In this document: piece after piece, positions 27,301 to 33,300 of the stretch | How positions within the stretch are numbered: position 1 is the stretch's first letter | Layout: each line of letters opens with the position of its first letter | Assembly (NCBI GenBank): GCA_030141605.1 | Contig: JAQGDQ010000311.1 | Span: 189,001 to 253,000, forward strand | From: Tubiluchus corallicola | Lineage: Eukaryota; Priapulida; Priapulimorpha; Priapulimorphida; Tubiluchidae | Direction: 5' to 3' | Length of the DNA stretch: 64,000 nt | Position numbers and translations under genes: made by a program | Notes under the pieces: model-generated | Database searches by the model: none | Told to the model about the DNA's origin: nothing | What the model saw: only the letters and a program-made list of their open reading frames with translations

Positions 27301-30300
27301 ATCATCATCATCATCATCATCATCATCATCATCATCATCATCATCATCATCATCATCATCATCATCATCATCATCATCATCATCATCATCATCATCATCA
27401 TCATCATCATCATCATCATCATCATCATCATCATCATCATCATCATCATCATCATCATATCATCATCATCATCATCATCATCATCATCATCACAATACAC
27501 ACACACACACACACACACACACACACACACACACACACACAACACACAACACACACACACACACAACAACACAACACACACACCCACATCATCATCATCA
27601 TCATCATCATCATCATCACATCATCATCATCATCATCATCATCATCATCATCATCATCATCATCATCATCATCATCATCATCATCATCATCATCATCATC
27701 ATCATCATCATCATCATCATCATCATCATCATCATCATCATCATCATCATCATCATCATCATCATCATCATCATCATCATCATCATCATCATCATCATCA
27801 TCATCATCATCATCATCATCATCATCATCATCATCATCATCATCATCAATCATCATCATCATCACCATCATCATCATCACCACCACCACCACCACCATCA
27901 TCATCATCATCATCATCATCATCATCATCATCATCATCATCATCATCATCATCATCATCATCATCATCATCATCATCATCATCATTATTATAACCGAGCT
28001 TAGATATAAACTGATTAGTAGAGAAACTGCTTACGCTTCAGTTGTAATAATTAGCAATTGTAGCATCAAAGATCAAAATAACACAAGTAAAAACTTGTAC
28101 CAGAATCAAATGATTACACTTACATGAGAGAGTCTTCGCTAGGCGTCGATGTTTACGGGCAGCCTTCGGGCTAGCGCTGCCGGGAATGGTCATCGTGCCA
28201 CTCACTTGCTGGTCAGGACTGCGAGGAACCGGGTCACTAAATGCCGAGCTTGGGATGCACTTATGATGAAAAACTTGCTTACAACCTATGATAAGAGAAA
28301 ACAATAATTTACTGGTAAGCAGATGGTTTAATGTAAGAAAGAACAGAAATGAAGTGAAGCATGACCGACAACTTTCTCCACATGAGCAAAATAGAAAAAT
28401 ATCAAACTAGTGAACACAAAATTATATTTAGGTAATGAAAAAAGAAGTGAGTTACTAACATTAAAAATACAAGACCGTTTTGACCTGTTGATATACAAAA
28501 GCGTCCAAACAAAAGCAGTGGTCACTCAAGAAGATGAGCATCCTTAGTCAGACTGGCAAAACACATTTAGAAAACTAGTATTCTTAGAACTAAGTTAAAA
28601 GTAATTGACCGGATGACCTACAAAAGCATCCAAACAAAAGCAGTGGTCACTCAAGAAGATGAGCATCCTTAGTCAGACTGGGAAAACACACTTAGAAAAC
28701 TAGTATTCTTAGAACTAAGTTAAAAGTAATTGACCGGATGACCTACAAAAGCATCCAAACAAAAGCAGTGGTCACTCAAGAAGATGAGCATCCTTATTCA
28801 GACTGGGAAAACACACTTAGAAAACTAGTATTCTTAGAACTAAGTTAAAAGTAATTGACCGGATGAATTACAAAAGCATCCAAACAAAAGCAGTGGTCAC
28901 TCAAGAAGATGAGCATCCTTAGTCAGACTGGCAAAACACACTTAGAAAACTAGTATTCTTAGAACTAAGTTAAAAGTAATTGACCGGATGACCTACAAAA
29001 GCATCCAAACAAAAGCAGTGGTCACTCAAGAAGATGAGCATCCTTATTCAGACTGGGAAAACACACTTAGAAAACTAGTATTCTTAGAACTAAGTTAAAA
29101 GTAATTGACCGGATGACCTACAAAAGCATCCAAACAAAAGCAGTGGTCACTCAAGAAGATGAGCATCCTTATTCAGACTGGGAAAACACACTTAGAAAAC
29201 TAGTATTCTTAGAACTAAGTTAAAAGTAATTGACCGGATGACCTACAAAAGCATCCAAACAAAAGCAGTGGTCACTCAAGAAGATGAGCATCCTTATTCA
29301 GACTGGGAAAACACACTTAGAAAACTAATATTCTTAGAACTAAGTTAAAAGTAATTGACCGGATGATCTACAAAAGCGTCCAAACAAAAGCAGTGGTAAC
29401 TCAAGAAGATGAGCATCCTTAGTCAGACTGGCAAAACACATTTAGAAAACTAGTATTCTTAGAACTAAGTTAAAAGTAAAAAGCTGATGTCCTTCTTCAT
29501 GTTTGAGTTTGTCTTGATGTTTTTCACGTATAACATTGTAACACAACTAGGCCCTTAGATACTATATTTTTAATATTTAATTTAGTTTTTATAGCAAAAT
29601 ACATTATTTTAATTTTACTTGAGTGACTAACTGCGTCAAATATCCATGCAAACTGAAAATTTTTTTCTACAGCCACTTTTGTCAAACCTTCACTCTAAAA
29701 ACTGGTGAATTTTCCTTTTGCTTGAGCACATATAAGAACATGGCGTGACTTACTTGAGCACATATAAGAACATGGCGTGACTTACTTGAGCACTTATAAG
29801 AACATGGCGTGACTTACTTGAGCACTTATAAGAACATGGCGTGACTTACTTGAGCACTTATAAGAACGAAGCGTGACTTACTCGAGCACTTATAAGAACA
29901 AAGCGTGACTTACTCGAGCACTTATAAGAACAAAGCGTGACTTACTCGAGCGCTTATAAGAACATGGCGTGACTTACTCGAGCACCTATAAGCACTTATA
30001 AGAACATGGCGTGACTTACTCGAGCACCTATAAGCACTTATAAGAACATGGCGTGACTTACTCGAGCAGCTATAAGCACTTATAAGAACACAGCGTGACT
30101 TACTCGAGCACTTATAAGAACACAGCGTGACTTACTCGAGCACTTATAAGAACACAGCGTGACTTACTCGAGCACTTATAAGAACACGGCGTGACTTATA
30201 AGAACACAGCGTGACTTACTCGAGCACTTATAAGAACACAGCGTGACTTACTCGAGCACTTATAAGAACACAGCGTGACTTACTCGAGCACTTATAAGAA

Positions 30301-33300
30301 CACAGCGTGACTTACTCGAGCACTTATAAGAACACGGCGTGACTTATAAGAACACAGCGTGACTTACTCGAGCACTTATAAGAACACAGCGTGACTTACT
30401 CGAGCACTTATAAGAACACAGCGTGACTTACTCGAGCACTTATAAGAACACAGCGTGACTTACTCGAGCACTTATAAGAACATGGCGTGACTTACTCGAG
30501 CACTTATAAGAACACAGCGTGACTTACTCGAGCACTTATAAGAACACGGCGTGACTTACTCGAGCACTTATAAGAACACAGCGTGACTTACTCGAGCACT
30601 TATAAGAACACAGCGTGACTTACTCGAGCACTTATAAGAACACAGCGTGACTTACTCGAGCACTTATAAGAACACAGCGTGACTTACTCGAGCACTTATA
30701 AGAACACAGCGTGACTTACTCGAGCACTTATAAGAACATGGCGCGACTTACTCGAGCACTTATAAGAACACAGCGTGACTTACTCGAGCACTTATAAGAA
30801 CATGGCGTGACTTACTCGAGCACTTATAAGAACATGGCGTGACTTACTCGAGCACTTATAAGAACATGGCGTGACTTACTCGAGCACTTATAAGAACACA
30901 GCGTGACTTACTCGAGCACTTATAAGAACACAGCGTGACTTACTCGAGCACTTATAAGAACACGGCGTGACTTATAAGAACACGGCGTGACTTATAAGAA
31001 CACAGCGTGACTTACTCGAGCACTTATAAGAACACAGCGTGACTTACTCGAGCACTTATAAGAACACAGCGTGACTTACTCGAGCACTTATAAGAACACA
31101 GCGTGACTTACTCGAGCACTTATAAGAACACAGCGTGACTTACTCGAGCACTTATAAGAACACAGCGTGACTTACTCGAGCACTTATAAGAACAAGCGTG
31201 ACTTACTCGAGCACTTATAAGAACACAGCGTGACTTACTCGAGCACTTATAAGAACACAGCGTGACTTACTCGAGCACTTATAAGAACGGCGTGACTTAT
31301 AAGAACACAGCGTGACTTACTCGAGCACTTATAAGAACACAGCGTGACTTACTCGAGCACTTATAAGAACACAGCGTGACTTACTCGAGCACTTATAAGA
31401 ACACAGCGTGACTTACTCGAGCACTTATAAGAACACAGCGTGACTTACTCGAGCACTTATAAGAACACAGCGTGACTTACTCGAGCACTTAGAAGAACAT
31501 GGTGTGACTTACTCGAGCACTTATAAGAACACAGCGTGACTTACTCGAGCACTTATAAGAACACGGCGTGACTTACTCGAGCACTTATAAGAACACAGCG
31601 TGACTTACTCGAGCACTTATAAGAACATAGCGTGACTTACTCGAGCACTTATAAGAACACAGCGTGACTTACTCGAGCACTTATAAGAACACAGCGTGAC
31701 TTACTTGAGCACTTATAAGCCCCAGAAAAGCTACTGATACTCTTGCTGCACACGCTGCAGGTTTCATGCCGATAGATTTTCGTAAGTTTGCGACTGTGAG
31801 TGCAGATCGACTGTACATTCTCATTCACGGCTTCGTTGACACCAGCTGCTTAAAAGAAAAATAAAAAATGCTGATTTTACTTTTTGTTATATAGTATGGA
31901 GTAAAACAAAACATGTGCAATTTGAATTTACTAACCAATTATTAAATGTTGCTAAATTGTAACGTAACAGCGTAATTCTGAGTGCAAAATGCATCTCAAA
32001 TGCACACTCGATTTTTTTGCCATCTTCCAATGGCTTTCATTACATAATTTGCACACGAGCTGAAATCTTTAAAAGCCAAAGCTACAGGACCAAGTAAAAA
32101 GTAGGGTAGATTTTATGTAAGAATTTCTGAAAGCTAATAAACATTTCACACATTATTAGTTTTAATATAAAACAAATCAGAAGTAACAATATTTAATCAA
32201 AACCATACCGTCCATCCGTTGCTTAAGAAGGAGGAAGTCACTTGTCAAGTCCTCCGGTGGCGACTCCTCACTGTCGTCAAACTCTCTCTTCATTGACTTG
32301 TCTGGCTTCTTACCACCTGAAGCCATATTATATAATTTTAATTTATTTACAATTCAGAAAACACGATAAAATTGCACAATTTGACGTACTTGACCTTCTC
32401 ATATTCTTTGATTTTAAATTGCCAAATCGTAAATGCAAATTTCTTTCAACATTTCACAGTCGGTCAATTTCATTGATCATAGTTTCCAAAAACCCGCCCC
32501 TAAACCAGCTTGCTTGATTGTTCAAACTAGCAGCTTTTTCTAAAGAAAACGACTGCATCAAAAACGTCCACATGATTATAGGAATCAATACTTTAACGAA
32601 ACAAAAGTAATTATTATGGTACCAAGCATGCGTCTTATGTTTTTCTTCACACCAGAGAATGGACTACTATACTTCAGACCAGCTTTTCCATCAGTGTCGG
32701 CTTTGCTCTTCAACGCGTGTTCAACTTGACTAGCGGAGGAATGATGCTTCCGATTCAGCCCATCTAAACTTTCCTAAAACAGAAATACAATTCTAAGTAA
32801 GTTTCAGCACGTTAGTTTGCGCAATTAGTTGCTCCACACAGGCTGTCTAGCACTCAATGTACAGAGGTAGTAAAGTTTATGCATAATAAAACATAACTGT
32901 CGAACATGTCGCAGGTGCGAGCATTTAATTTACAGTTCATAAATAATTTTGATTTGTAGTTTTAAACTTTTTGTTTTTCATTACCACTAAGTCAGTGCTG
33001 ACATCTGTTGGTACACTTGGAAGTTTTCAATATATGTATGTACTTGCTACTGGTGTATGTTTGTATAGAACTGGGTCACTGGACTTCTCTATGAATAACT
33101 GCTACTGTTGACTTGGTAGCAAGATGAGTGGACAAGCAATAGGATTAAACTGCGGTTTTGATTATTATAACGTTTGTGACTCAGGTGCAATGATATATTA
33201 GCAGATGTATTGACTTTAACTTTTGTTTATTGCTGTTTATTTTCGTGTATACGTGTATTGATTATGAGATTATGATTTCGAATACAATACAGATCGCAAA

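Follow-up and report, generated by a model that had tools for sequence, protein, structure and literature searches.

Splice junctions in known tandem repeats

The minisatellite of the human interferon-induced gene 6-16 was reportedly described by Turri in 1995 as carrying multiple splice donors, and it is said to consist of about 26 copies of a 12-nt unit. In amphioxus, minisatellite-like tandem duplications of exon-intron boundaries, named "mirages", are known from the genes of Adh3, troponin C, the globins BflGb6 and BflGb9, and PGBD5, and regular splicing is reportedly not disturbed by them (PMC3087553, PMC3902484). The window of the present study, a stretch of 64,000 nucleotides (G+C 35%, no N), is part of contig C382 in an assembly of 343.5 Mb and contains an array of a similar type in a myosin gene.

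The myosin gene and its zinc-finger exon pair

The gene is located on the minus strand and includes a motor exon (Pfam Myosin_head, 1.8e-37), two C1 zinc fingers and a RhoGAP exon. Motor, C1 and RhoGAP domains constitute the make-up of class IX myosins, and this domain set, rather than the motor sequence, suggests that the gene is myosin-IX-like. The presence of such a gene suggests an animal genome. As was found by the sequence search in the PDB, the motor exon is most similar, among solved structures, to myosins X and V, and the matches listed for it (best 60 of 78) include no motor of class IX. The array lies between two exons that together encode a zinc finger:

31705..31845, minus strand: exon with the first half of a C1 zinc finger (28 in the numbering of the earlier note), 141 nt; the 15 nt at its end form the exonic portion of the repeat unit
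28124..28285, minus strand: next exon (29 in the same numbering), with the acceptor TTATCATAG/GTTGTAAGCAAG (the slash marks the splice junction); it completes C-x2-C-x4-H-x2-C

The end of the upstream exon reads CTTATAAGTGCTCAA/GTAAGT. Its 15-nt tail codes for K-C-S, and the Cys is a C1 ligand by motif, as the earlier note had suggested. Joining through this first donor to the exon beginning at 28285 gives 15 residues across the junction with the pattern C-x2-C-x4-H-x2-C. The joined peptide matches Pfam C1_1 with 27.0 bits (E 3.9e-6), which is only marginally above the cut-off of 26.5, and its PDB matches are all weak, the best being a RING finger (E 0.049), with the C1 domain of PKC delta at 0.05.

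The same myosin gene also contains a very long ATC repeat (27238-27985), for which TRF gives about 260 copies, together with an AC tract. An open frame on the minus strand at 47431-47694 has a 33-residue stretch resembling the start of a transposase, apparently of the Tigger/CENP-B type.

Anatomy of the donor array

The intron between the two exons is made up largely of tandem repeats:

29724..31719, minus strand: tandem array of a 32-base unit (TRF), with 58 GTAAGT and 5 short donorless units, overlapping the exon end by 15 nt
31699..31704, minus strand: putative authentic donor GTAAGT (donor 1), the sole donor of the 58 with a product open through the next exon
28480..29479, no strand assigned: further tandem array of this intron (TRF), 125 bp x 8

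The two arrays together account for 2981 of the 3419 nt of the intron. The earlier note had regarded the exon end with its donor as the unit of the adjoining 32-base array, and this is borne out by the overlap of the array with the exon, whose last base is 31705, where the note had placed it. The claim of about 60 near-identical GTAAGT donors also agrees with the count: 58 occur on the minus strand, the exon's own donor included, with first bases from 31704 to 29753 and a spacing of mostly 32. Each unit consists of 15 nt of exon tail and 17 nt of intron start, the boundary being placed from the reading frame and the C1 domain. The consensus cttataagtgctcga/GTAAGTCACGCTGTGTT is matched exactly by 36 of the 58 donor units, and 16 unit types were distinguished overall; the units were anchored on GTAAGT, so that the invariance of this hexamer is circular and says nothing on selection for it. 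The five donorless units, delimited by reading, have 18-20 bases each and look like the product of a 12-base loss between TAAGT repeats. The triplet before the donor is CGA in 53 donor units, and CAA is confined to the exon's own copy and the four donor units farthest from the exon.

The 13-mer CTTATAAGTGCTC occurs 52 times in the window, between 31719 and 29800 and always on the minus strand. A chance origin of the array is not credible. A 601-base piece of the array, compared with the 343.5 Mb assembly in a search that ignores very common words and scores only the best candidates, gave six matches, all at this locus. The insertion of a dispersed satellite at the exon is not supported for this unit, since in this search the piece matched this locus alone.

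Choice of donor

The earlier note had stated that only the first donor keeps the reading frame, and this holds when all 58 donors are tallied (the first eight were shown row by row, and rows 9-58 carry the same first units): donor 2 shifts the frame and leads to a stop in the next exon, and donors 3-58 include a stop within the array. Judged by frame and protein rather than by RNA, donor 1 is most likely the donor used. Use of a later donor would deprive the protein of the second C1 and the RhoGAP domains. An mRNA with such a premature stop would be marked for decay.

Donor 1 might be expected to be stronger than its copies, but this is ruled out by the U1 pairing energy, which is -5.6 for donor 1 and likewise for one inner donor. 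Given this equality and an upstream intron of 363 nt (the preceding exon was identified by reading), any preference has to be due to position or to signals in the exon; with an upstream intron of only this length, exon definition is not certain. According to a survey of alternative splice sites, the upstream one of two near-equal donors is preferred with long introns and the downstream one with short introns, and the upstream donor is chosen in 60% of all events of near-equal strength (PMC9225289). The 58 donors of identical core and near-identical context at one exon would amount to a natural experiment on the choice among donors of constant strength, where a junction ladder at every 32 nt, or its absence, would directly measure the exon-proximal preference.

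Similar arrays in the same gene and genome

A second mirage was detected in the same gene:

33761..34061, minus strand: second mirage, about 100 bp x 3; the unit holds a 14-nt exon tail ATAACACGATAATG and the donor GTTAGT, which is GTTAAT in the third copy
34048..34261, minus strand: exon seeding the second mirage, identified by reading; it ends in phase 0, which fits the exon at 32773, starting in the same phase

No Pfam match was obtained for the joined peptide from the exon at 34048-34261. The arrays at 23007-23103 and 53697-54357 were considered and set aside: by reading, they start just past donors, yet have no shared exon tail.

In the whole genome, patterns of three successive donors were counted as overlapping matches; these comprise simple repeats and a dispersed satellite family too and are hints rather than array counts. 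With reversed patterns as an imperfect control, AGGTAAGT gave 1386 matches (107 reversed), AGGTGAGT 503 (150), CAGGTAAGT 378 (24) and AAGGTAAGT 83 (32), while the acceptor pattern TTTGCAGG gave 94 (9 for the reversed control, which contains CG). If arrays are as common as these counts hint, they would be one route of intron growth, the intron described above being 2981/3419 nt repeat. The dispersed satellite family, with the unit AGGTAAGTCAAATG...GACTT, is present on C17, C26, C38, C92 and C96 in both orientations and is rich in donor-like sequence.

The upstream flanks of 25 donor arrays, picked by hand from the listed matches, were read. Excluded from this reading were the arrays of the dispersed family, the simple repeats on C36, C370, C628 and C1580, and matches outside the listings; C29, C32, C34, C48, C58, C100, C195, C232, C507, C557 and C1340 were also left out, and L057 was not used. 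In 8 of the 25 arrays, namely C5 (L037), C620 (L049), C338 (L054), C467, C173, C828 (L068), C1015 (L070) and C1693 (L071), an exon-like open frame was recognised that reaches the first donor and whose tail recurs in the units; the translations were judged by eye, and no criterion had been set beforehand. A clear exon was absent in the 17 others. The repeated tails are 13 to 41 nt long by a lenient script rule that includes mismatches. C467 is the weakest case, with 7 contiguous matching bases beside the donor in the nearest copy and 9 in the next.

Pfam matches over the cut-off were found for C620 (SDF, 1.1e-20) and C1015 (ANKRD13_C, 9.6e-11), and matches under it for C338 (HEAT_Maestro_2, 7.7e-5), C1693 (CarboxypepD_reg, 0.0039) and C173 (DHC_N2, 0.02); no meaningful Pfam match was found for C5, C467 and C828. 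The PDB search gave only unrelated weak matches for C467 and a best E of 5.7 (phosducin-like 3) for C5. C467 may encode a sulfotransferase, C1693 NOMO, C173 a dynein and C217 POU2F. The last of these gave no Pfam family. Its array was not counted, as it shares just 4 nt with the exon end; neither was C929, which has 8 contiguous bases in common with its upstream flank and an open frame that is not exon-like by eye.

In C5, C338 and C828 the unit, by reading, is approximately the exon tail plus the donor hexamer and little more. The array of C5 has a 33-base unit and 43 GTAAGT (45 across the 5 kb fetched), with a stop in every unit in the exon frame. The 39-base unit of C338 is in frame and has no stop over three units, and downstream donors there would lengthen the protein. 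The period at the first spacing, taken modulo 3 in ten cases, is 0 in three, 1 in one and 2 in six. Since unit lengths are not tied to the frame and C338 can be read through, no common regulatory rule is apparent.

The exons of C338 and C828 carry, just before the repeated tail, an AGT identical to the AGT of the donor hexamer, a possible microhomology for the first slippage. An exon was recognised in none of the ten flanks of acceptor-side arrays, in several of which the end-finding was faulty, hence this is not a negative result. It might be supposed, tentatively and with more doubt than assurance, that 5' splice junctions are preferred birthplaces of minisatellites in this genome, so that conserved genes carry dozens of decoy donors, the intronic part of the unit being sometimes little more than GTAAGT or GTGAGT, and are correctly spliced by position alone.

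Origin and significance of the array

The array is very probably a mirage, a minisatellite derived from a tandemly duplicated exon-intron boundary, mostly neutral, with the exon-proximal donor in use. Its unit spans the boundary (15 nt of exon and 17 nt of intron), is of minisatellite size with a splice signal (32 bp; 58 units with GTAAGT and 5 without) and forms a homogenised interior from which the edges are excluded (36/58 identical, CAA at the edges only). A 32-base stretch of the junction may have been duplicated by slippage or unequal exchange, and the copies would then have expanded and been homogenised within the intron, where length is tolerated. The exon copy, kept by protein selection, and, at the other edge, the copies farthest from the exon would have escaped homogenisation. 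Since protein need fixes the tail of the exon, the unit was probably derived from the exon. In splicing, the exon would be recognised as a unit and the donor nearest across it would win, the other 57 donors being silent or giving rare stop-bearing transcripts that decay. Slippage origin, dominance of donor 1 and near-neutrality of the array are most likely.

It is possible to imagine a functional array, whose copy number sets the rate of splicing at internal donors and of stop-containing transcripts and in this way tunes the level of myosin-IX. The donor cores are identical, donor 1 and one inner donor have equal U1 energy, and all 57 downstream donors lead to a stop. However, the other mirage-like arrays of the genome follow unrelated exons, the 39-base unit of C338 contains no stop over three translated units, so that no common regulatory logic is apparent, and splicing is reportedly normal in the amphioxus cases (PMC3087553, PMC3902484); this explanation seems unlikely. 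By analogy, the same amphioxus cases would favour exon-proximal preference over an isoform rate set by copy number, two alternatives that the earlier note had offered side by side. Still less probable is that the donors serve as a platform for the U1 snRNP, shielding the intron from premature polyadenylation: there are indeed 58 U1-complementary sites in 2 kb, but the intron has no AATAAA, and its four ATTAAA all lie beyond the array on the downstream side, which leaves little to suppress. Tandem arrays are often mis-sized in assemblies, and the array might be real with its length or part of its make-up being an assembly artefact. One of the published amphioxus mirages reportedly looked mis-assembled in the draft genome; against this, the present array comprises donor units of 16 distinct types, units with indels and edge units that differ from the rest, in a window with no N, and an artefact has very little probability. 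The mirage remains the preferred explanation.

Comparison with known systems

The earlier note knew of no published case of a donor multiplied to this extent. As regards the kind of array this was wrong, since the amphioxus mirages and the human 6-16 minisatellite have been published, and the 33-base array of C5 with its 43 GTAAGT is another instance within this genome. In the human gene (IFI6), a minisatellite likewise supplies multiple splice donors, and three mRNAs reportedly arise there through the use of two downstream repeat units as donors (PMC4526556). Gene structure is similarly altered by variable internal tandem repeats located at the exon-intron boundaries of duplicated human genes, but these have 30 bp units in about 4 copies on average and are presented as a source of new introns rather than as a donor array (PMC2812944). 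In another report, splice signals are supplied by a duplication that spans an intron-exon boundary, as they are here, whereas in the present gene no new intron is evident and an existing one grew (PMC4974935).

The closest likeness is with amphioxus, where the mirages reportedly also carry splice signals in many units, have un-homogenised edge units and affect several genes. The two haplotypes of BflGb6 have 6 and 3 units, each of 150-160 bp, whereas 58 donors with a 32-base unit are present here. The unit of 32 compares with 10-72 bp in the mirage of Adh3. It is a donor array of a known kind, notable for its copy number.
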